Under the pieces are notes generated by a model. It was not told the DNA's origin, did no database searches, and saw nothing but the letters and a program-made list of their open reading frames with translations. A stretch of 64,000 nucleotides of DNA from Mesonia mobilis DSM 19841 (GTDB taxonomy: Bacteria > Bacteroidota > Bacteroidia > Flavobacteriales > Flavobacteriaceae), in NCBI RefSeq assembly GCF_000423405.1, contig NZ_AUHX01000001.1:372001-436000 (forward strand), read 5' to 3'. The position numbers and the translations under genes are program-made. Shown here piece after piece: positions 222 through 56,395 of the stretch. Numbering within the stretch: position 1 is the first letter of the stretch; each line of letters opens with the position of its first letter.

Positions 222-1061
222 ATGAAGAAATTTAGATTATTTTTCCTTTTAATTTTAGTAACTACATTGGTTAGTTGCTCTAGTGATGACAGCAGTAACG
301 ATACTGAAGAAGTGGTTTCTAATCATTTCCCTTTAACCGTAGGAAATTCTTGGACCTATAATAATGAAACAGCTTATGAAGATGGGACTTTCGATAATTC
401 TCAAGAAACGATAAGTGTTGCTTCAAGTAATGAAGCTCAAGGTGTAACTTATTATAGCCTAACATCGAATCTGCCTCCTTTACAGCAAGGTTTTGTGACC
501 GGAATACTTACTAATGGTGAATTAACCGCTGCAGACAATCAATTAATTTATAATGGCGAATTATCGATTAACCTATCTGAAATGGGTATTCCCGATGCTG
601 AAAATTTAACGATACCGTTAGTTAATGTAATTATGTTTGATGCAGATGCGAATACAGGGAATACATTAACTGCAGATTTAGATAACAGTTTTACACAGTC
701 AATCCCTGTTCAAGGAACAGACATTCCCTTTACTTTTGAATATGATTTAGAAACTTTTCAAGGAGATTTTCTCGAAAGCTATACGACAAATGAAATGAGT
801 TTTGAAGATGTTTTTAGCGCTGATATTATTGTAACTATAGAGATTAATGCAAATTTTTCAGGAATCACTATTCCGGTTTTAGATAGTCAAGAAGCTATAC
901 AAATAACCAATTACTATGCAGATAATGTAGGAATGATCTACAGTGAAACTGCTATAAATTATAATTTTGAAGCTATCAATTTACCAACTGTTCCAGAAAT
1001 ACCTGATTACAGTGTAAATTATTCACAAACAATTGAATCATATACTATTGTTGAAGAATAA
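222..1061 (+). CDS. secreted lipoprotein of unknown function
   Basis: The 279-residue product starts with a charged MKK, a hydrophobic stretch and a lipobox ending LVSC at about residue 19, so it should be exported and lipidated. The SSDDSSND run after the cysteine is typical of Bacteroidota lipoproteins and resembles a surface-export signal. The rest is acidic and beta-rich, with a short HFPLTVGNSWTY segment seen in several flavobacterial lipoproteins of unknown role. It is a single gene with its own promoter and converges on the oxidoreductase gene with only 8 bases between. I do not recognise a functional family. Confidence 0.8.
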   Translation: MKKFRLFFLLILVTTLVSCSSDDSSNDTEEVVSNHFPLTVGNSWTYNNETAYEDGTFDNSQETISVASSNEAQGVTYYSLTSNLPPLQQGFVTGILTNGELTAADNQLIYNGELSINLSEMGIPDAENLTIPLVNVIMFDADANTGNTLTADLDNSFTQSIPVQGTDIPFTFEYDLETFQGDFLESYTTNEMSFEDVFSADIIVTIEINANFSGITIPVLDSQEAIQITNYYADNVGMIYSETAINYNFEAINLPTVPEIPDYSVNYSQTIESYTIVEE

Positions 1062-1069
1062 TTAAAGTT

Positions 1070-3988
1070 TTACTTTAATAAGAAATCTTTTAAAATGCTT
1101 ACCGGATGGTGAGCATTTTTTTGTGTCCCGTCTTTAATTTGATGCCGGCAACTTGTACCGTTAGCTACGATAATGGTATTCTTTTCTGCTTTTCTCACTG
1201 CCGGAAAAAGTGTTTGCTCTCCAATTTGCATACTGATCTCGTAATGCTGCTTTTCATAACCAAAACTACCGGCCATCCCACAACAACCAGACGGAATAAT
1301 GGTCACCTTAAAATTTTCAGGTAAGTTCAATAAGTCAAAAGTATGTTTTACGTTAGACATTGCTTTTTGATGACAATGTGCGTGAATTTTAATGTTTTTC
1401 TTTTCACTGCTGAATTGTGCTGAAGTAATTTTTCCTTTTTCTATTTCTGCGGAAAGAAATTCTTCAATTAAAAACGTCTTTCTCGCTAATGCGGAAGCTT
1501 CTTCCCTATCTTCAGCTAAACGCAAATATTCATCCCGAAAAGATAAAATAGCGGAAGGTTCGATCCCGATCAACGGAATTTCTTCAGAAACTATATCTTT
1601 AAAAACTTCAATATTCTTATTTGCTAATACTTTCGCTTCTTCCAGAAAACCTTTAGAAATATAGCTTCTGCCACTTTCTTCGTGAGCAACGACTTTTACT
1701 TCATAACCTAAACCTACCAATAATTCGATTGCATCGATCCCAATATTGGTATCAAGTAAATTGGTAAATTCATCTATAAATAAATAAACTTGCCCTATTT
1801 TTTTCTGCGGAATTAATTGAATCTTTCCTGTATCAATTAACTGTCGTAAACTCTTTTTAGCCACTTTTGGTAACGAACGTTCTGGAGCGACACCTATCAT
1901 TTTTTTGATAATTCCGCTAGAAATTTTATGGGTAAATAAGCTATTGGTGATTCCTGAAAATTTAGCACCGAATAGATTAGCTTTATTATTATTCGCAAAG
2001 AGTTTATTTCTAAAACTGAATCCGTTTTCTTTTTGATATTGGTATAAAAACTCTGCTTTATACGTTGCCATATCTACATTCGACGGGCATTCGCTTTTAC
2101 AACCTTTACAACTAATGCATAAATCGAGTACTTCTTTAATTTCTTGATGATTAAATTTATTGGGTCGATCACTTTGCGTTAAAAACTCTCGAAGCACATT
2201 AGCACGACCACGCGTAGTGTCTTTTTCATTTTTGGTGGCGCGATAGCTTGGGCACATCGTTCCGCCGGCTTCCACACTTTTTCGGCAATCTCCAGTTCCG
2301 TTACATTTTTCAATGGCTCTAAGGATTCCGTTTGAATCTGAAAAATCCTGAAAAGTAGTAATTTCAGGTTCTTGCCGATCGGGTTGGTAACGCAATGAAG
2401 TTTCCATCGGAGCTGCAAAAACAATTTTACCGGGATTAAAAATATGTTGCGGATCAAAAATTTTCTTCACTTCTACAAAAAGCTGGTAATTCTTTTTGCC
2501 CACCATTTCTTCAATAAATTCTGCTCGCACTCTTCCATCACCGTGTTCCCCACTTAATGACCCATTATATTTCTTCACTAATTGGGCTACTGCATGAGTA
2601 ATTTCTTTAAAAAGTTTTACGTCTTTACTCACTTTTAAATTCAAGATGGGTCGCAAATGCAATTCTCCCGCACCGGCGTGTGCATAATAAACAGCTCGCT
2701 GTCCGAAGTTTTTCATGATCGCCGTAAACTCGTTGATGTAATTGGCCAAATGCGGAATACTTACCGCCGTGTCTTCAATACAAGCAACAGCTTTTTCATC
2801 GCCATCCATATTACCCAGCAAACCGAGTCCGGCTTTTCGAAGCTCGATCGCCATTTCGATATGTTCTCCGGTTAATACAGGATTTGCATAGCTTTTTGTA
2901 TGTTCTTCTAATGCATTTAAAAGCGCTTGTAACTGAACTTCTAAATCTTTTTGATGATGATCGCGTACTTCTAGCATTAAAATCGCTTGCGGATCTTCTG
3001 CTATAAAAAAACGATTGTCTTTATATTTTAAATTGTTTTTCGTGCAATCTAAAATGGTTTTATCCATCATTTCACAAGTGAATAATGAACGTGCCATCAC
3101 TGGTTCTACGGCTGCCAAACAATCTTCAATCGACTTAAAATGTGCAGCGACCAAAGCAGAATGTTTGGGAGGTAAATCGTCTAATTGTAAGGTGAGTTCT
3201 GTGGTAAAAGCTAAAGTCCCTTCGCTTCCGGCTAATAGTTTACAGATATTTAATTTTCCGGTAGCTTCAGAAAAAACTTCTGTAGTAATTAATTCGTCGA
3301 TCGCATAACCGGTGTTTCTGCGGTGAATATCTCCCTTAGGAAATTGCCGATGTATTTCTTCCTGAACTTCTTTCGGCTTCAATAATTCATAAAGTTCCCG
3401 ATAAATATATCCTTCTAAATCCTGTTGTATGCATTTCTTTTGAAATTCTTCCAGAGTAATAGCTTCAAAAGTAACTTCACTCCCATCAGAAAGTAAACAT
3501 TTCATCGCGATAATTTTATCACGGGTAACTCCGTATTTAATTGAAGTGGTTCCGCTAGAATTGTTACCGGCCATACCGCCAATCATACAGCGATTAGAAG
3601 TGGATGTATTAGGAGCGAAAAACAAGCTGAAAGGTTCGAGATATCTATTTAGATCATCTCGAATAACGCCAGGCTGAAGTCTAACTGTTTTTTCTTTTTC
3701 ATTTAAATGAAGAATTTCGGTAAAGTTCTTAGAAATATCGACCACGATCCCATCACCCACACATTGCCCGGCTAACGAAGTCCCCGCTGCTCTCGGAATT
3801 AAACTCGTGTTATGCTTTGATGCAAAATTAATGAGCTGTTGAAGATCTTCTGTTGTTTTGGGTAAAGCGACCGCTAACGGAAGTTCTCGATATACAGAAG
3901 CATCGGTAGCGTAAAGAGCTTTCAGCAACGCATCACTATAGAATTCTCCCTGAAGGTTTTTGGCTAAATCTTGAAGTTTCTCTTTCAA
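1070..3988 (-). CDS. FAD-linked oxidase fused to an Fe-S/CCG-domain reductase (YdiJ-like)
   Basis: The 972-residue protein joins a GlcD-type FAD oxidase to a GlpC/GlcF-type iron-sulfur part. Residues about 25-170 carry the FAD-binding segment with RAAGTSLAGQ, and about 260-515 the oxidase C-terminal domain with SGEHGDGR. A ferredoxin-like segment follows with CISCKGCKSECP, and near the end are HCHQKAM and GCCGMAGSFG cysteine motifs. The fusion matches the YdiJ/D-2-hydroxyacid dehydrogenase type, which oxidises substrates such as D-lactate or D-2-hydroxyglutarate and passes electrons to the respiratory chain. The substrate cannot be read from sequence. The start is TTG, because an in-frame stop lies just upstream and no ATG fits. 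It is a stand-alone minus-strand gene. Confidence 0.88.
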   Translation of the reverse strand: MKEKLQDLAKNLQGEFYSDALLKALYATDASVYRELPLAVALPKTTEDLQQLINFASKHNTSLIPRAAGTSLAGQCVGDGIVVDISKNFTEILHLNEKEKTVRLQPGVIRDDLNRYLEPFSLFFAPNTSTSNRCMIGGMAGNNSSGTTSIKYGVTRDKIIAMKCLLSDGSEVTFEAITLEEFQKKCIQQDLEGYIYRELYELLKPKEVQEEIHRQFPKGDIHRRNTGYAIDELITTEVFSEATGKLNICKLLAGSEGTLAFTTELTLQLDDLPPKHSALVAAHFKSIEDCLAAVEPVMARSLFTCEMMDKTILDCTKNNLKYKDNRFFIAEDPQAILMLEVRDHHQKDLEVQLQALLNALEEHTKSYANPVLTGEHIEMAIELRKAGLGLLGNMDGDEKAVACIEDTAVSIPHLANYINEFTAIMKNFGQRAVYYAHAGAGELHLRPILNLKVSKDVKLFKEITHAVAQLVKKYNGSLSGEHGDGRVRAEFIEEMVGKKNYQLFVEVKKIFDPQHIFNPGKIVFAAPMETSLRYQPDRQEPEITTFQDFSDSNGILRAIEKCNGTGDCRKSVEAGGTMCPSYRATKNEKDTTRGRANVLREFLTQSDRPNKFNHQEIKEVLDLCISCKGCKSECPSNVDMATYKAEFLYQYQKENGFSFRNKLFANNNKANLFGAKFSGITNSLFTHKISSGIIKKMIGVAPERSLPKVAKKSLRQLIDTGKIQLIPQKKIGQVYLFIDEFTNLLDTNIGIDAIELLVGLGYEVKVVAHEESGRSYISKGFLEEAKVLANKNIEVFKDIVSEEIPLIGIEPSAILSFRDEYLRLAEDREEASALARKTFLIEEFLSAEIEKGKITSAQFSSEKKNIKIHAHCHQKAMSNVKHTFDLLNLPENFKVTIIPSGCCGMAGSFGYEKQHYEISMQIGEQTLFPAVRKAEKNTIIVANGTSCRHQIKDGTQKNAHHPVSILKDFLLK

Positions 3989-4110
3989 AAGAATTTTTTA
4001 CTAAAGTACAATTTTACAAATTATTGTGTTGGTTTGTTAATTTAACTTTTGTTAAGTAAGATTAACAAACTTTTGGCGAAGCCCCTATTTACGGCAGATT
4101 CCAAAGGATA

Positions 4111-4118
4111 TATATTTG
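4111..4118 (+). promoter_or_regulatory. -7 box (TATATTTG) of the small outer-membrane protein gene
   Basis: An exact TAnnTTTG box ends 23 bases before the ATG at 4142. It lies downstream of the earlier in-frame ATG at 4049, which rules that start out if this promoter is used. Confidence 0.5.
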
Positions 4119-4141
4119 TTTTAGAAACAAAAAAGCAAATT

Positions 4142-4645
4142 ATGAAAAAGTTATTTTTTACTTCTATTTTTATAGTAGGAACGTTTTTTACCATGCAGGC
4201 ACAAGAAATTGCAGACAATGCTTTAGGGCTTCGTTTGGGTGGCGCTAATGGTGTTGGAGCTGAAATTTCTTACCAAAGAAAAGTGGGAACCGATAATAAT
4301 CGTTTAGAATTTGATTTAGGTTGGCGTAACGATTCTCATTTCGACTTGGTTAAAACAACCGCTTTATACCAATGGGTTTGGAATATTGAAGGTGGTTTTA
4401 ATTGGTATGCCGGCGCCGGTGCTGGTTTAGGGATCGTAGATGATAACCACGATCACCACCCAGAAAATCACGGTCACGATGATGGAGCATTTTTATATGT
4501 TGCCGGAAATGTGGGAATAGAATATAGTTTTGATATCCCTTTACAGGTTTTTGCCGATTTAAGACCGGAAATTGGTTTTTCTGACTATGAAGTAATTGAT
4601 GATTTTGTTCCGGATTTTGCCATTGGAGTGAGGTATCAATTTTAA
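4142..4645 (+). CDS. small secreted outer-membrane beta-barrel-like protein
   Basis: The 167-residue product begins MKKLFFTSIFIVGTFFTMQA, a signal peptide cut near QAQE. The mature part has alternating beta segments (LRLGGANGVGAEISYQ, LEFDLGWRN, WYAGAGAGLG) and ends in the aromatic YQF typical of outer-membrane barrels. A His/Asp-rich loop (DDNHDHHPENHGHDDG) sits mid-protein at about residues 100-115 and could bind metal, though that is only suggested by composition. The start at 4142 was chosen over 4049 because the signal peptide begins there and a -7 box lies between the two. A strong terminator follows. Confidence 0.75.
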   Translation: MKKLFFTSIFIVGTFFTMQAQEIADNALGLRLGGANGVGAEISYQRKVGTDNNRLEFDLGWRNDSHFDLVKTTALYQWVWNIEGGFNWYAGAGAGLGIVDDNHDHHPENHGHDDGAFLYVAGNVGIEYSFDIPLQVFADLRPEIGFSDYEVIDDFVPDFAIGVRYQF

Positions 4646-50348: not shown

Positions 50349-50382
50349 CCATTCATCGACACTTAAGTCTAATTGAACGATA
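50349..50382 (+). promoter_or_regulatory. LytTR-like direct-repeat element, copy A
   Basis: CCATTCATCGA followed 21 bases later by ATTGAACGA. The box lies 41 bases before a weak -7 (TACCTTAA at 50390-50397), the same distance as in copies B and D. It precedes the response-regulator gene. Confidence 0.5.
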
Positions 50383-50462
50383 TTGCACTTACCTTAAACG
50401 ATTAATGAAACTACAAAGGCTTTAATTATTGATATTTGTTTGCAAAACCTACTAATGTTAAC

Positions 50463-50876
50463 ATGAGAAATAAATTAAGAATTCTATTAATTGAAGATGA
50501 TATGATTGAAGTGATGAAACTTAATCGTACCATCGGCTCATCTCAATTACCCCACGAGGTTATAGAAGCTAAAAAGGGAGAAGAAGCTTTAGACTTTCTT
50601 AGAAGCGATGCAAAATTACCAGATATTATTTTGCTCGATTTAAATATGCCTAAGATGAATGGCATTAAATTTTTAGAAACCCTTAAAAACGATGAAACAC
50701 TCAAGTACTTGCCTACAATTATTTTAACAACTTCTGCCAACCAAAAAGATATTTTAGCTTGCTATAAAGTTGGTATTGCCGGTTATGTTATAAAGCCATT
50801 AAAATATGAAGATTATGTAATTAAGCTCAAATGTCTACTTGATTACTGGAGTTTAAACGAGCTTATTAAAGGATAA
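50463..50876 (+). CDS. single-domain response regulator
   Basis: The 137-residue protein is one CheY-like receiver domain: acidic pocket LLIEDDM near the start, phospho-Asp in DIILLDLNMPKMNG, the Thr in ILTTSA and Lys in GYVIKPLKYEDY. There is no output domain, so it passes the signal to a partner, as in the Rcp type linked with hybrid kinases. The ATG at 50463 was used; an in-frame TTG at 50436 is earlier but has no family support. It precedes an H-NOX gene by 6 bases, and the pair with the following PAS-kinase remnant resembles H-NOX/kinase/response-regulator NO-signalling loci. The regulator is intact while its partners are not. Confidence 0.9.
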   Translation: MRNKLRILLIEDDMIEVMKLNRTIGSSQLPHEVIEAKKGEEALDFLRSDAKLPDIILLDLNMPKMNGIKFLETLKNDETLKYLPTIILTTSANQKDILACYKVGIAGYVIKPLKYEDYVIKLKCLLDYWSLNELIKG

Positions 50877-50882
50877 GTAATT

Positions 50883-51424
50883 ATGAAAGGAATTGTATTT
50901 ACCGAATTTCTCGAAATGGTTGAAGAGAAATTTGGACTAGAAGTTGTCGATTACATTATCGAAAGCTCTGAGTTAGCTTCTGAAGGGATTTATACCGCTG
51001 TTGGGACTTACGATTTCTTTGAGATGCAACAATTACTAGTTCATCTAAGTGAAGTGAGTAAAATACCTATTAATGATCTAATTTATACCTACGGTTTATA
51101 TTTTTTTAAAACGCTCACCTCGCATCACGGAGATATTTTTAAATATTATAATTCGCCTATAGATATGGTGGCTTCCATCGAAAATCACATTCACGTACAG
51201 GTTAAAAAATATATCCTGAGGCTGAATTACCGACTTTCAAAATCGTAGAACAAAACGAGCAATCGCTTAGTTTAATCTATAAGTCTGAAAGAGCCATGTT
51301 CATGTTTGCCCAAGCTTTAATGGAGAAAACATTTGAGTATTACCACGAAAATGTCGACATTCAATACAACTTACTTAACGACAAAGGAACTGAAGTAAAG
51401 TTTTTAATAAATTCCCATGAATAA
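50883..51424 (+). pseudogene. H-NOX (heme NO-binding) protein, frameshifted
   Basis: The first 121 residues (MKGIVFTEFLEMVEEKFG) match the H-NOX family, heme sensors of NO. The frame then breaks at about 51210 in a run of six A's and stops at 51246-51248. Reading one base on, the protein continues KIYPEAELPTFKIVEQNEQS and LIYKSERAMFMF, where YKSER is the YxSxR heme-propionate motif, and ends at TAA 51422-51424, the normal total of about 180 residues. One missing A therefore restores the family. The following kinase remnant carries several more lesions, so it is probably real decay, though a sequencing error in the A-run or slippage cannot be excluded. Confidence 0.82.
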
Positions 51425-52542
51425 TTTATCGAAAAAGGTTGAAATTCTTGAAAAAGCACTTGAACGAGAAAAAAAAGCTCGTAAGAAAGCGGAAGATATT
51501 CTTGAAGAAAAATCGACTGAATTGTATGCACTTTCTGAAGCTCTAAAAACTTCGAACCAAAAATTATCTCATTTATTAAAAGAAAAAACCAATCAGTTAG
51601 AAGATGTTTTCACTAACATTTTAGATGCCTATGTGGTGATCGATATTAGTGGTTATGTGCTTACGATGAATGATGCCGCTATTCAGCTTTTGGGATTCGA
51701 TCACAAAAAAGAAAACGTAAATCTAATTGAACTTGTAAAACCAGAATTTAAAGATTACACCTTAAACGCCTTTAGGACACTTTACGAGCAAGGAACTTTT
51801 TCTAATTATAAAGCAAAGCTACTTACTAAAAACAACCAAGAAAGAATCGTTCAAATTAACGCGAGTATTATTTACGACGATAATGGTAAGCCTATTGCCG
51901 CACAAGGTATTGCTCGACATCACTAACGAAACTCAGCTTAAAAAGCAGTTAGAAGAACAAAAAAAGCAATTAGACTTAGTGATGGATAACTCCCCTATCG
52001 GGATTAGTCTATCTAAATCTAATTACGAAGGTTTAGTGATTGCCAACAAAACGCTTTCTAAACTTTTAGGGTATTCTCAAGAAGAATTAAACCATATAGA
52101 TGCTACCACAATCACACATCCTGAAGACCGTGATTGGTCTTTAAAATATTTTGAAAACCTTAAAGAAGGTAAAATAGATCATTATTCTGTATAGAAAAGA
52201 TATATTAAGAAAGACGGCTCGATGATATGGGTAAAAACTTCTGCCAAAGCTGTTCGATCTTCAGATACAGATGAAACCTATATGGTAGCGACTTTCGAAG
52301 ATATTTCAAAAGAAAAACAAGCCCTAGAAAAACTTAAAGAATCTGAAAACAGACTTGCGGCATTAATTGTAAACCTACAAACCGGAATTCTCTTAGAAGA
52401 TGAAAATAGAAATATCTTACTTACCAACGAGCGTTTCTGTAATATGTTTGGTATCGATGCTCCGCCGGAGGCTTTAAAAGGTTTAGATTATAGTAATGCT
52501 GCAGAAGAAACTAAATCACTCTGCACTAAAAGTGCAGAGTGA
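51417..52542 (+). pseudogene. PAS-domain sensor (histidine) kinase, decayed and truncated
   Basis: The gene starts at 51417, overlapping the H-NOX end by 8 bases. It has an N-terminal coiled coil (LEKALEREKKARKKAEDILEEK), a PAS domain (LEDVFTNILDAYVVIDISGY) and then a frame break near 51917, where ARDIT of a PAC motif would be restored by two extra bases. A second PAS (LDLVMDNSPIGISLSK) follows, then an in-frame TAG at 52192-52194 where a Glu codon is expected (before KRYIKKDGSMIWV). A third PAS (AALIVNLQTGILLEDE) ends at 52542. No HisKA or ATPase domain follows anywhere, so the kinase end is lost. H-NOX-coupled hybrid kinases are the natural parent. Confidence 0.82.
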
Positions 52543-52549
52543 TTTAGTT
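52509..52549. repeat. perfect 19-bp inverted repeat at the broken kinase end
   Basis: AACTAAATCACTCTGCACT (52509-52527), loop AAA, and its exact reverse complement at 52531-52549. The left arm is in frame with the kinase (AEETKSL), and the right arm copies it backwards. No T-run follows. Confidence 0.85.
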
Positions 52550-52632
52550 AAAAAATTCTAATATCTTCTCGTAAAATTTATTTCAAAATTACATTTATCT
52601 AAACTATAGCTATAATCATCGAAACATAACGA

Positions 52633-52681
52633 CCACTCAACGAAAAACAGGTATTTAAAAAGGAAAAGCTAACGATATTTG
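52633..52681 (+). promoter_or_regulatory. LytTR-like promoter, copy D (upstream box plus GATATTTG)
   Basis: CCACTCAACGA at 52633-52643 (9 of 11 match to CCATTCATCGA) is 41 bases before GATATTTG at 52674-52681, the same spacing and same -7 as copy B. The second half-site is weak. A terminator follows 46 bases after the -7 box. Confidence 0.45.
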
Positions 52682-52686
52682 AACTG

Positions 52687-52757
52687 AGCTTAAGTAATTA
52701 TTTCATAAGTTTTTATTGGTTTTTTTAGGTCGGGAGATAAATCTCTCGATCTTTTTT
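52687..52757 (+). ncRNA. candidate small RNA (about 70 nt)
   Basis: The stretch between promoter copy D (start expected near 52687) and the terminator hairpin ending at 52757 contains no open frame. The hairpin (AGGTCGGGAG, loop, CTCTCGATCT) takes up its 3' third. It could be a stand-alone RNA or an attenuator leader of the lipoprotein gene at 52822. Confidence 0.35.
52727..52757 (+). terminator. rho-independent terminator
   Basis: An 11-bp stem with two G-T pairs and a TAAA tetraloop, followed by TTTTTT, upstream of the lipoprotein gene. Confidence 0.8.
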
Positions 52758-52821
52758 GTTTTAAATAAGCAACCTTTCAAATAATTAATCATCTTAAGGA
52801 TGTAAATCTAAAGATCTAAAG

Positions 52822-53256
52822 ATGAAAAAATTACTTCTACTTCTCGTAATTACTATGGTTGCTGCTTGTCAAGATTGTGAAGATGATTCCGGTTCTATAA
52901 ATTTGTTAGATTGTAATCTAAATACAACGGTAAGTACGCTCGCTTATCAAAATTCAACTTCAGATCCTGTTACTATATCTTTTCATGCGATTACAGAAAA
53001 TTGTTTGGCGCTAGATTATACCGCTAGTGGTTGCGATGGGTCTTCTTGGGAAGTTGAATTAATAGCTTCAGAAGATATTTTAGAAACTAACCCACCACAG
53101 CGAAATTTAAAATTCATACTGACTAATCAAGAACTTTATACAGCAGTGATCCAACAAGAAATGTCTTTCGATATTTCTAATCTTCAAGTAGCAAATAATA
53201 ACTCTGTATTGCTAAGTATTGATGGAATTACAGAACCTATTCTATACGAATACTAA
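52822..53256 (+). CDS. small lipoprotein of unknown function
   Basis: The 144-residue product begins MKKLLLLLVITMVAACQDCED with a lipobox VAAC at residue 16, so it is exported and lipidated. The mature part has four further Cys (CEDD, LLDC, ENC, GC) that could form two disulfides, and an acidic, beta-rich sequence. I recognise no family. It stands alone between two terminators or promoters and starts 64 bases after a terminator. Confidence 0.72.
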   Translation: MKKLLLLLVITMVAACQDCEDDSGSINLLDCNLNTTVSTLAYQNSTSDPVTISFHAITENCLALDYTASGCDGSSWEVELIASEDILETNPPQRNLKFILTNQELYTAVIQQEMSFDISNLQVANNNSVLLSIDGITEPILYEY

Positions 53257-53353
53257 TAACTATTTATATATTAACTAATTAAAGTTGAATTACTTCAAAA
53301 AATATAGATAACTGTTCCTACCTAAATATAACGTATTCGTCTATATATAATTG

Positions 53354-53402
53354 CCATTCATCGAAATTTAAGTTAGTTGGGCGATTAAATACAAGATATT
53401 TG
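53354..53402 (+). promoter_or_regulatory. LytTR-like promoter, copy B (upstream box plus GATATTTG)
   Basis: CCATTCATCGA at 53354-53364, then a second half-site GTTGGGCGA, then CGATTAAAT and GATATTTG at 53395-53402. The spacing from the first box to -7 is 41, as in A and D. It precedes the STAS-like gene by 31 bases. Confidence 0.55.
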
Positions 53403-53432
53403 ATTCACTAACAACAAACAAAATTTTGAATT

Positions 53433-53738
53433 ATGGCTTTCGCAATCTCCTTTGAAAATGGCAAGTTTTGGTTACGAGGTAACCTTACAGCTAATAACGC
53501 AAATTTAGTTAGAAAACATTTTGAATTAATTTTTCAAACTCAAAATGAAGCGATAATACATCTAGGTGCTTTAGATAAAATTGATACCGCAAGTGTTTTT
53601 GAAATTCAAAAATTATTGAAATATACCAATCAAAGGCATCTTCATTTGTCGATAACCGGTACAGAAAATCCGAAATTGAAGGGAAAATTACCGTTAAACG
53701 GTATGTTTTTTAATCTCGATTATCTACAAAGTGCATAA
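53433..53738 (+). CDS. STAS-domain-like small protein
   Basis: The 101-residue soluble protein has a STAS/anti-anti-sigma-like pattern: a strand and loop FWLRGNLTANNANLV, a middle IHLGALDKIDTASVFEIQKLL with a short helix where anti-anti-sigma proteins carry the phosphorylatable Ser, and LHLSITG. Whether it acts in a partner-switch pathway is unknown; no anti-sigma kinase or sigma gene lies beside it. It is expressed from its own promoter (copy B). Confidence 0.68.
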   Translation: MAFAISFENGKFWLRGNLTANNANLVRKHFELIFQTQNEAIIHLGALDKIDTASVFEIQKLLKYTNQRHLHLSITGTENPKLKGKLPLNGMFFNLDYLQSA

Positions 53739-53833
53739 TTTCTATTTAACACTTAAATCTCTTATTGATTCATTATCAATCATTTAAATGTTACATAAAT
53801 GTTAATAGCTTTATTAAATGTTAAAAAAATCAG

Positions 53834-53881
53834 CAATTTATCGAGTAAAGTTGTTTTTAGTCGATTAAATTTTTAGTTTTA
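53834..53881 (+). promoter_or_regulatory. LytTR-like promoter, copy C (upstream box plus TAGTTTTA)
   Basis: CAATTTATCGA (53834-53844), second half-site TTTAGTCGA, shared tail CGATTAAAT with copy B, and a -7 box TAGTTTTA at 53874-53881, spacing 40. Transcription would begin near 53887, after the ATG at 53884, which favours the glycosyltransferase start at 53917. Confidence 0.5.
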
Positions 53882-53916: not shown

Positions 53917-55056
53917 ATGAAATTAGCTGTCGTAACCAATTTTACTCCAAATAAAACTAATGTTAGTGAGTACGGATATCATTTAGCTAAAAATTTTGCT
54001 AAAAATCAAGATGTTTCAGAATTAATTGTTTTTACAGAAAACTCAATTGATCAAACCAACACGAATGATTATAGCAAAATTAATGGGTGTACAGTTAAGA
54101 TAAATGAATGTTTAGATCGTAAAACCACTAAAAATGCATTTAGCATTTTAAAAGCTGTTAAAGAAGAAAAGCCAGACGCTATTCTATTTAATATACATTC
54201 AACCCAACCAAACAGTAATAGTCTAATGAGTGTATTATTACCATTAGTATTAAAACTGAAAGGTATTTCAACTATCGTATTATTACATCAAGTTAAAACT
54301 GAAGGCTTTTTAAATAAAGCTTTTACACGTTTACTTTTACAAGCAGATTTAGTAACGGTAACTTTAGAAGAGCAAGCTCGTTTGCTTAGAGAGAATTTTA
54401 ATGCGCATAATGTTTCTGTAGTTCGTCACGGTTCTTTTAGTACTCCGGTTTTTCCACAGCCTGTAAAAAAAGATGAGCCTAAAAAAGTTTTAGCTTTTGG
54501 TAAATTTGGAACCTACAAGCGTGTAGAGATTTTAATTGAAGCGATTGAGCAAGTAAGAAAACGCACTGAGGAAAAAATTGAACTCATTATCGCAGGAATA
54601 GATGCACCTGAAGCTCAGGGTTATCTGGATAAAGTAAAGAAAAGTTATCATGATGTAGAAGATATTTTCTTTACTGGTTATGTTGAAGAGAATGATGTAA
54701 AGCATGTATTTAAAGAAAGTACAATTGTTGCATTCCCGTATACATCTTTAGAAGGTAATGCCGGTATTCTACACCAAGCAGGAGCTTACGGTAAAGCAAC
54801 TGTTTTACCGCAAACTAAAGATTTTGAGATTATTTCTCAAGAAGAAGGTTATACAGGAGCATTTTTTAATGAACGTAGTATAAGTTCACTCGCAACAGCA
54901 ATTGAAAGCCTTATCGTAAACGATGAATATAGAACAGAAGTTGCAGAAACTAATTATCAAGCAGCTTGTAAAAATACATTGGCATCTGTAACGTCTTCGT
55001 ACATTACATTATTTAAGAATATTATCGATAACAAATATTCTTATGCCTTGGTATAA
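53917..55056 (+). CDS. GT4-family glycosyltransferase
   Basis: The 379-residue protein is a GT-B glycosyltransferase: N-terminal Rossmann strand MKLAVVTNFTPNK, LLHQVKTEGFLNKAF, and the nucleotide-sugar-binding half with VLAFGKFGTYKRVEILIEA at about 185 and YTSLEGNAGILHQAGAYGK at about 280, where the GT4 EXFGXXXXE pattern is partly changed (LEGNAGILHQ). The sugar and acceptor are unknown. The start at 53917 was chosen on promoter copy C; an in-frame ATG at 53884 is only 3 bases after the -7 box. A terminator follows. Confidence 0.85.
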   Translation: MKLAVVTNFTPNKTNVSEYGYHLAKNFAKNQDVSELIVFTENSIDQTNTNDYSKINGCTVKINECLDRKTTKNAFSILKAVKEEKPDAILFNIHSTQPNSNSLMSVLLPLVLKLKGISTIVLLHQVKTEGFLNKAFTRLLLQADLVTVTLEEQARLLRENFNAHNVSVVRHGSFSTPVFPQPVKKDEPKKVLAFGKFGTYKRVEILIEAIEQVRKRTEEKIELIIAGIDAPEAQGYLDKVKKSYHDVEDIFFTGYVEENDVKHVFKESTIVAFPYTSLEGNAGILHQAGAYGKATVLPQTKDFEIISQEEGYTGAFFNERSISSLATAIESLIVNDEYRTEVAETNYQAACKNTLASVTSSYITLFKNIIDNKYSYALV

Positions 55057-55111: not shown

Positions 55112-55270
55112 ATACCTAAAATTCACTTAATTAATTCTCGTAATTATACTTCACAGAAACTATAAAAGTCATCAAAATTTGACCAAAAAACACTGGTCTA
55201 AAGATAGTTACATTTCATCTACACTTAGTATGTAACTGGCTAAAAAACAAATTGCATTGCATATTTCACC

Positions 55271-55278
55271 TATTTTTG
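55271..55278 (+). promoter_or_regulatory. -7 box (TATTTTTG) of the candidate ncRNA
   Basis: TATTTTTG is an exact TAnnTTTG match, 16 bases after a TTG at 55252-55254. No gene follows before a terminator. Confidence 0.4.
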
Positions 55279-55283
55279 AAATA

Positions 55284-55460
55284 TAGATTAACAATCTAAA
55301 AATTTAAAGTGTTTTTATTGAGATTTTGATAGCCCAACGTATAAATAGTATTTTTCAAGTTGAGTTCTAGATGTGGGTTTTCATAATTGTTAGTTTTTAA
55401 ATGTTAGTAAGTTTACCCCACGTCGAGAGTCGGTTTCACTTTGTGAGCCGGCGCTTTTTT
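55284..55460 (+). ncRNA. candidate structured small RNA (about 177 nt)
   Basis: The transcript would run from a -7 box at 55271 to the terminator at 55429-55460, before the FNT gene's own promoter. GATGTGGG (55370-55377) can pair with CCCACGTC (55417-55424) directly before the terminator stem, giving a closed structured 3' half. No reading frame is evident. I do not recognise a known RNA family. Confidence 0.4.
55429..55460 (+). terminator. strong rho-independent terminator
   Basis: GTCGGTTTCAC, loop TTT, GTGAGCCGGC with a T-run. It lies upstream of the FNT promoter, so it ends a different transcript. Confidence 0.82.
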
Positions 55461-55506
55461 GTTGTTAAAAAAATGCTTATTATTTTTAGTCTTTAACGCT
55501 TCGCCC

Positions 55507-55531: not shown

Positions 55532-56395
55532 ATGACAAAACAAGAAGAACAAACCCAACATCATATCGATTCTGAAATTCACGATTCTGCTAACGATTCA
55601 AAAAAAAGTGCTAGTACAAAAAAATCTCATGGAGAGATTTTAAAAGATCAGATCTGTGAAGGCCAAGAAACTTATAATAAGAAACCAAGCAGTATTATAT
55701 TAAGTTCGATGACCGCTGGTTTAGAAATTGGGTTTAGTTATTTGCTTATTTGTAGCTTATTTTATTTTTTGAAAGACACTTTCGATAATACTACATTATT
55801 CAAACTTATTGCTTTTGTATATCCGGTAGGATTTATTTTAGTGATTTTAGGACAATCTATACTTTTTACAGAGCAAACATCCTTATTAACCTTACCGGTA
55901 TTAAATAGAAAAAGAAGTGTAAAAAGCCTATTCAAAATATGGAGTCACGTTATCCTAGGGAATTTAATCGGTGGAATTTTAATGGCATTAACCCTAATTT
56001 GGATAGGACCTCAGCTAAAATTATTCGATTTAAATACAATTGAAACCATTGCTAAACACGTTACAAAACCCGATACAATTACCATTTTTATAAGTGCAAT
56101 TTTAGCCGGTTGGCTTATGGGACTTTTGTCTTGGTTATTATCTTCTGCGACAGAAACGGTTAGCAGAATTATCATTATTTTTATTATTACTGCAACGATG
56201 TCTTTTACCGGTCTGCATCATAGCATTATTGGTAATGTTGAAGTATTCTCTGGAATGATCACCTCAGAAAGTATTCAGTTTTTAGATTATATAAGATTTC
56301 AGTCTTTTGCGTTATTAGGTAATGCCATTGGCGGTGCATTTTTTGTGGCTTTGCTCAAGTATCGAGCGTTTGTTTACAATGTAGATATTAATTAA
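55532..56395 (+). CDS. formate/nitrite transporter (FNT) family channel
   Basis: The 287-residue protein has a charged N-terminal tail of about 60 residues, then about six helices of the FNT pentameric channel, with GLEIGFSYLLI, LGQSILFTEQTSLLTLPVLNR, LGNLIGGILMA and FTGLHHSIIGNVEVF, in which a central His sits after TGLH as in FNT pores. The Asn/Thr loop positions match the YfdC-like branch rather than the FocA group, so the transported anion is uncertain. It ends in a 4-base convergent overlap with the PAP2 gene. Confidence 0.87.
   Translation: MTKQEEQTQHHIDSEIHDSANDSKKSASTKKSHGEILKDQICEGQETYNKKPSSIILSSMTAGLEIGFSYLLICSLFYFLKDTFDNTTLFKLIAFVYPVGFILVILGQSILFTEQTSLLTLPVLNRKRSVKSLFKIWSHVILGNLIGGILMALTLIWIGPQLKLFDLNTIETIAKHVTKPDTITIFISAILAGWLMGLLSWLLSSATETVSRIIIIFIITATMSFTGLHHSIIGNVEVFSGMITSESIQFLDYIRFQSFALLGNAIGGAFFVALLKYRAFVYNVDIN

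Follow-up and report, generated by a model that had tools for sequence, protein, structure and literature searches.

Introduction

The response regulators VirR of Clostridium perfringens and RgaR of C. difficile both carry LytTR domains, and a third comparable system, Agr of Staphylococcus aureus, differs from the one described here in that its input is a quorum peptide; its RNA, RNAIII, is much longer and codes for a peptide. VirR/VirS activates VR-RNA and RgaR activates SpoZ, in both cases from paired direct repeats (PMC2838878, PMC10602386), and AgrA activates RNAIII (PMC10602386). The VirR repeats share one helical face and keep a constant position upstream of the promoter (PMC2838878), and the critical G positions of RgaR, -51 and -72, are 21 bp apart (PMC10602386). 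Published LytTR sites have 9-bp repeats and 12-bp spacers, and the LytTR domain of AgrA and its DNA structure are named in the same paper (PMC2766830). Here we describe arrays of 9-bp boxes at 21-bp steps (sites A to E) in a 64,000-nucleotide stretch of the genome of Mesonia mobilis DSM 19841 (3.2 Mb, an assembly of 59 contigs), which we call the window, and the LytTR response regulator to which these arrays probably belonged. The VirR and RgaR systems differ from it in that they are found in Firmicutes, have other inputs and another box sequence, and lack heme-based nitric oxide (NO) sensors and an Hpt protein. No tandem RNA units are described for them in the available portions of the two papers, and the RNA of the window, which has no Rfam match, is unrelated to theirs.

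The predicted design of the system was like that of a circuit in Vibrio, but the parts were unlike, because the regulator here is of the LytTR type and its counterpart LuxO is an NtrC-type σ54 activator. In Vibrio, kinases associated with NosP or H-NOX act via the Hpt protein LuxU and the response regulator LuxO on several small RNAs (Qrr), with a biofilm-related output that we count as a further likeness; the Vibrio kinases are hybrid (PMC6769237), whereas both kinases here lack a receiver domain according to Pfam. FIST proteins sense NO via heme and control a neighboring kinase (PMC12570481), and H-NOX likewise controls kinases in Vibrio and Shewanella (PMC6769237). In the NosP/NosK operons of Burkholderia pseudomallei, a FIST gene adjoins the gene for a kinase without a recognized sensor domain, as it does here, but the output is an HD-GYP-type regulator and not a DNA-binding LytTR regulator with small RNAs (PMC12570481). 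Small RNAs (the Rfp series) and the TAnnTTTG -7 box have been described in another member of the flavobacteria, Flavobacterium psychrophilum, and neither "LytTR" nor "direct repeat" occurs in the main text of that study (PMC9723704). The terms "H-NOX" and "LytTR" co-occur in PMC6769237 and in a review of Geobacter chemotaxis (PMC8396549). A search of the open-access literature, with subscription journals mostly outside its scope, found no paper on Bacteroidetes in which small RNAs are tied to both a LytTR regulator and an H-NOX/FIST relay. To our knowledge, few activator-controlled small RNAs have been described in Bacteroidetes.

Results

Box arrays at putative promoters in the window

A first-pass annotation of the window had proposed three, possibly four, copies of a direct-repeat promoter element (A to D) with fixed spacing to a -7 box. 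We scored the sequence with a 9-bp box model, ATTCRTCKA, used as two copies at a 21-bp step with a maximum score of 18. The sites and their putative -7 boxes are the following.

50351..50401, + strand: site A, boxes ATTCATCGA (50351) and ATTGAACGA (50372) and a poor box CTTAAACGA (50393, 6/9), at 21-bp steps
50431..50438, + strand: promoter A, -7 box GATATTTG, 38 bp from the start of the last A box
52593..52643, + strand: site B, boxes ATTTATCTA (52593), AATCATCGA (52614), and ACTCAACGA (52635)
52674..52681, + strand: promoter B, -7 box GATATTTG, 39 bp from the start of the last B box
53335..53364, + strand: site C, boxes ATTCGTCTA (53335) and ATTCATCGA (53356)
53395..53402, + strand: promoter C, -7 box GATATTTG, 39 bp from the start of the last C box
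53836..53844, + strand: site D, a single box ATTTATCGA, 38 bp before TAGTTTTA (53874); weak, and unsupported as a pair
55192..55221, + strand: site E, boxes ACTGGTCTA (55192) and TTTCATCTA (55213) plus a poor third box; absent from the first-pass annotation
55271, + strand: -7 box of site E, TATTTTTG, 37 bp from the start of the last E box

Boxes were present at or next to all four positions that had been proposed (50349, 52633, 53354, and 53834), and three of the four copies held up as pairs. The intergenic stretches with sites A, B, and C scored 16/18, 16/18, and 18/18, respectively, and none of 500 shuffles of each stretch reached these scores; the shuffles, like those of the relatives' upstream regions below, preserved single-base composition only. 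Site E, a weaker fifth copy, scored 15/18, a value reached by 5 of 500 shuffles. The spacing between the boxes and the -7 box was constant, as had been claimed, at 37 to 39 bp from the start of the last box. The second half-sites that had been quoted for A, B, and C were really in A, C, and D, and site B turned out to contain three boxes, more than had been noted.

Two of the proposed elements were replaced. For promoter A, the distances of TAnnTTTG matches and the box register ruled out TACCTTAA as the -7 box in favor of GATATTTG at 50431. For site C, the half-site GTTGGGCGA begins 20 bp downstream, which breaks the register, and it is not kept as such in the relatives examined; the partner of the C box is the upstream ATTCGTCTA.

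When the whole genome was scanned, as the first-pass annotation had suggested, site C was the only pair without a mismatch. Fifteen pairs had at most two mismatches, compared to 5 for the reversed pattern, which served as the control; A, B, and C are three of the 15, all in the same orientation and with starts less than 3 kb apart. When up to three mismatches were allowed, the numbers rose to 120 and 65, which indicated that the weaker pairs of the genome are largely due to chance.

Two further observations concern box pairs. Site E and a conserved element (TTTACCCCACGT, then a terminator) together occupy positions 55192-55465, upstream of a formate/nitrite transporter gene. Further copies of the element are linked to boxes in genomes G002, G004, and G013, and G010 has a diverged form; the element may be a second small RNA or else an attenuated leader. 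Outside the window, a typical pair with one mismatch (L175, G000 C15:11552) lies upstream of a 59-codon open frame.

Geometry and gene association of the boxes in relatives

Box statistics were taken from 52 loci with a close homologue of the LytTR regulator. These came from 80 collected loci, of which 28 weaker relatives (at most 43% identity) were excluded, and some of the 52 end at contig ends, which affects the domain counts given below. Distances between same-strand boxes peaked at 21 bp (226 occurrences, versus 69 on average for the remaining distances between 9 and 60 bp), with a second peak at 42 bp (128). Around 57 promoters, TAnnTTTG matches (5/6) were found 38 or 39 bp (14 matches) and 59 or 60 bp (28 matches) from the start of the second box, and all remaining distances from 15 to 74 bp together held 37. 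The two classes differ by one repeat, and the 59/60-bp class has a further, degenerate box. This clustering indicated that the last box of an array stands at a fixed phase to the promoter, a phase that the window obeyed, with 38 bp (A), 39 bp (B), 39 bp (C), 38 bp (D), and 37 bp (E) from the start of the last box to the -7 box.

The arrays were associated with particular genes. A strong pair, defined as two boxes exactly 21 bp apart that score at least 15/18, lay upstream of the first gene of a signaling operon, described below, for 38 of 45 matching genes, i.e., in 38 of 42 loci (38 of 44 upstreams once near-identical ones were removed), and in 1 of 900 shuffled upstreams. Strong pairs also preceded the STAS gene (7/12) and the glycosyltransferase gene (12/23). 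For the genes inside the operon the counts were 1/19 (H-NOX), 0/48 (first histidine kinase), 0/36 (FIST), 0/41 (second histidine kinase), 0/44 (Hpt), and 0/51 (LytTR), and they were 0/24 for flippase and 0/29 for TPR genes. Other genes, taken as controls, had a strong pair in 14 of 294 cases. At least 7 of these 14 pairs belong to a large protein coded directly 3' of the LytTR gene and were retained in the control count, although these proteins look like true regulon members. Large proteins of this kind (810 to 1145 aa, with starts that resemble signal peptides by eye) have strong arrays in L056, L066, L067, L068, L089, L096, and L101. In the stretch 3' of the LytTR gene, which was analyzed in 51 of the 52 loci (one was too short), 17 loci had a strong pair, compared to 0 of 51 when shuffled.

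The question of whether copies are random in position relative to genes thus had a divided answer: in relatives they were far from random, whereas most weak matches in the window genome were chance-like. By these gene associations, sites A, B, C, and D of the window sit at the same four positions as in relatives, D itself being degenerate. The earlier LytTR-type reading held as well. The 21-bp step corresponds to 9-bp direct repeats with a gap of about 12 bp, the array keeps a constant phase to the promoter downstream of it, and the operon is preceded by arrays in no fewer than seven named genera (Mesonia, Aquimarina, Lutibacter, Flavobacterium, Leeuwenhoekiella, Gramella, and Kordia). A LytTR response regulator is coded beside the arrays in relatives, but not in the window genome, where the gene appears to have been deleted.

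Loss of the regulator gene in the window genome

In these related marine bacteria, the operon typically codes, in order, for a response regulator with a receiver domain only, H-NOX (present in some of the loci), a PAS histidine kinase, FIST (NosP-type), a histidine kinase, Hpt, and the LytTR response regulator; Hpt was found in 44 of the 52 loci. The intact locus of Mesonia sp. UWMA-0090 (G010, L044/L049) has this order, including H-NOX, and continues with three small RNA units, a lipoprotein, a STAS protein, and a glycosyltransferase. Pfam searches found LytTR, Hpt, HNOB, and FIST domains in its operon proteins, with FIST and HNOB coded beside the kinases. The window has lost FIST and retains HNOB only in broken form, as the following list of features shows.

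50463..50876, + strand: single-domain response regulator, first gene of the signaling operon, apparently intact (Pfam Response_reg; 88% identity to L044_2011)
50883..51421, + strand: H-NOX (HNOB) gene with a frameshift near 51209
51417..52515, + strand: remnant of the PAS histidine kinase gene, with a frameshift near 51917, an in-frame TAG ending at 52194, and the 3' half gone
52509..52549, strand not assigned (.): palindrome at the deletion junction, one arm of which is also found inside a longer repeat at three further genomic places
52686..52762, + strand: predicted small RNA (approximate ends), with an intrinsic terminator stem at 52727-52752 and then a T run
52822..53256, + strand: small lipoprotein-like protein, 50% identity to a protein beside the locus in G010; no Pfam family
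53433..53738, + strand: STAS-domain protein (Pfam STAS, 23.1 bits versus a cut-off of 22.6), with the same promoter in relatives
53917..55056, + strand: glycosyltransferase (group 1); homologous start ATG at 53917
55532..56395, + strand: formate/nitrite transporter family gene (Pfam Form_Nir_trans), downstream of site E

The window and G010 were 83% identical up to position 52515, where the match jumped to the stretch just upstream of site B. Relative to the G010 arrangement, 4.7 to 5 kb are missing, depending on which RNA unit matches the surviving copy. As judged from this alignment, a deletion together with frameshifts removed the regulator, Hpt, FIST, and the second kinase and broke H-NOX and the first kinase. 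The regulator gene had correctly been said to be absent from the window, and the deletion supplies the reason. Within the genus, a regulator profile gave at least 439 bits for six intact orthologues and 347 to 380 bits for three second-class copies, and the best match left in the window genome scored 174 bits.

Because an arm of the junction palindrome recurs at three places in a longer repeat, the deletion may have come about through a short mobile repeat. The palindrome corresponds to one end of a repeat that, judged by eye, is about 78 bp long and lies at G000 C2:170993, C3:319553, and C14:40830; the repeat is perhaps a miniature transposable element. The same operon is decayed in a second Mesonia genome (L046 of G012, positions 327-4323), where the kinase and LytTR genes are split and there is no match to the small RNA; this decay is seemingly independent of the lesions in the window.

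A predicted small RNA behind promoter B

The stretch behind promoter B had been called gene-free, but it holds a predicted small RNA gene of about 75 nt that, judging by sequence features alone, has its own promoter and intrinsic terminator. The consensus of the RNA in Mesonia is GGUUAAGUAA, U(n), AUUUCAUAAGUUUUUAUUGG, U(n), and then the terminator, in whose stem 4 pairs are kept through two-sided changes. The stretch is conserved and noncoding. Because the invariant blocks are set apart by 1-nt length changes, which break any frame, there is no conserved reading frame, and a coding transcript was ruled out. An extra 5' helix from RNAalifold was not supported, since none of its pairs showed a two-sided change.

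An RNA model (R1) had 14 matches at an E value of at most 0.1, in 7 of 16 Mesonia genomes. Twelve of these matches lay downstream of a LytTR gene of the class, at a distance of up to about 0.6 kb (one was weak, with an E value of 0.005), and the remaining two were the window copy and a match at 0.084. In six of the seven RNA-bearing genomes a LytTR gene is directly upstream of the RNA, and the seventh is the window genome with its deleted regulator. Conversely, of the nine intact Mesonia LytTR genes of the class, eight are followed by the RNA and one, in G007, is not. Tandem units occur in G010 and G004, with three in each. Rfam contained no family for the RNA; at gathering score it matched only two tRNAs in the window, and in L044 and L045 it gave only three matches, all below the gathering scores of their families.

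In three Flavobacterium genomes (L072, 10790-10930; L073, 10795-10932; L084, 10772-10910), another conserved putative small RNA immediately follows the LytTR gene. It has about 35 conserved bases, a terminator-like palindrome, and a T run, and its sequence is unrelated to the Mesonia RNA. Further candidates are present in L070 and L057 (Gillisia). These candidates were recognized by eye and in an alignment of three sequences. A terminator scan of the candidate stretches in L072 (Flavobacterium) and L057 flagged none; by eye, the L072 candidate has an 8-pair palindrome followed by six T nucleotides.

Discussion

We consider it likely that sites A, B, and C, together with E and, weakly, D, are the arrays of a single LytTR response regulator that belonged to an NO-sensing-type operon and was lost from this genome by deletion. 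A relay that ends in the arrays is the simplest reading, because FIST and H-NOX control kinases elsewhere and because Hpt and the LytTR regulator share an operon. In such a relay, the heme sensors (H-NOX and FIST), with NO as the presumed signal, would modulate both kinases, and phosphate would go via Hpt to the LytTR regulator. The phosphorylated regulator would bind the 9-bp boxes repeated at 21-bp steps and would activate RNA polymerase from a fixed helical position, with the last box 37 to 39 bp before the -7 box. It would turn on its own operon (A), the predicted small RNAs that immediately follow its gene (B), and the genes for the STAS protein, the glycosyltransferase, and other surface-polysaccharide functions (C and D). 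In the window genome, the sites and one small RNA gene would be left without their regulator, unless a paralogue took over.

A broader proposal is possible, and we put it forward tentatively: that Flavobacteriaceae independently built a Qrr-like circuit from heme NO sensors, an Hpt relay, a LytTR activator, and small RNAs in a slot behind the regulator gene. The slot would hold unrelated RNAs in different genera (one in Mesonia and another in at least three Flavobacterium genomes), in tandem in some, and the window RNA would have outlived its regulator. Homology to the Qrr circuit itself was not found, in that the regulator consists of Response_reg and LytTR domains and the RNA has no Rfam match.

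Several results weigh against the reading of the arrays as sites of one LytTR regulator that drives small RNAs. Site D scored 11/18, which 444 of 500 shuffles equaled, so the possible fourth copy was ruled out as a box pair. Five of 30 permuted boxes also peaked at 21 bp, at lower counts, and at least 4 of these retain parts of the motif; TTGCAACT, a permuted box that is more common, gave 195 occurrences at 21 bp and 203 at 12 bp. H-NOX was clear in 14 of the 52 loci and weak (24-25% identity) in 5 more, FIST was present in 37, and the Hpt match was just below the Pfam cut-off (24.0 versus 24.6 bits). Within Mesonia, the box pair tracked the regulator only in part. Pairs with at most two mismatches numbered 77 in the six genomes with the regulator (control, 37) and 35 in the seven genomes without the regulator class (control, 25). 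G003 and G013 have the regulator, yet their counts were near those of the control (6 versus 7 and 12 versus 10, respectively) and no STAS match was found in either, which suggests that the outputs vary or that the boxes differ. A search of a 397-genome sample of the family with R1 and strict filters matched the window genome only, with no match outside Mesonia; the six other RNA-bearing Mesonia genomes were not among the matches, being either outside the sample or missed. Finally, a duplex-energy search for RNA targets near local start codons in five loci gave a different top match in each, none of which was shared between species.

Of the other explanations, the one that survived best is that a paralogous LytTR regulator of the window genome (C4:63983, or those on C1 or C3) uses the same boxes, in which case the regulon is not orphaned. 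Three LytTR genes remain in this genome, the C4 protein is 38-39% identical to the lost regulator, and the sites and the RNA core are well preserved, with another typical site at C15:11552. We nevertheless regard this as rather unlikely. Matches with scores similar to that of C4, orthologous or not, also occur in Mesonia genomes without an RNA match, and the 3.3-kb loci around the three paralogues contain no box pair. Moreover, just one pair with 0 or 1 mismatch was found in all seven Mesonia genomes without the regulator class, compared to 11 in the six with it, although three of the 11 resemble one conserved coding stretch.

The transcript from promoter B might also be an attenuated leader of the lipoprotein gene rather than a free small RNA, given that this gene is on the same strand and begins about 60-70 bp past the terminator. 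The three complete promoter-RNA-terminator units in tandem in G010 and G004 and the fact that the next open frame varies by species (827 aa in L050, 808 aa in L052, and 191 aa in L051) make this improbable. We judged it more improbable still that the boxes bind a regulator of another family whose sites are neighbors of the LytTR gene by chance. Binding of LytTR proteins to the boxes is a prediction from sequence, and the association is partly built in because the loci were collected by their LytTR gene, but 21-bp direct repeats are a LytTR signature, and the arrays mark the promoter of the operon that codes for the regulator and the stretch 3' of the regulator gene, and they seldom precede other genes. 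A chance likeness of AT-rich promoters can be dismissed for A, B, and C, because even though single boxes (such as D) are common in these genomes, no shuffle matched any of the three sites and spacing and phase are strict in 38 loci.

With the arrays read as those of a lost LytTR regulator, the box model (ATTCRTCKA every 21 bp, with the last box 37 to 39 bp before the -7 box) is a ready tool to search for members of the regulon in this family, whose bacteria handle polysaccharides and are of environmental importance. The window genome would be a natural deletion mutant that retained the sites and the RNA and lost the regulator, and the fate of a regulon after the loss of its regulator could therefore be tested against close relatives.

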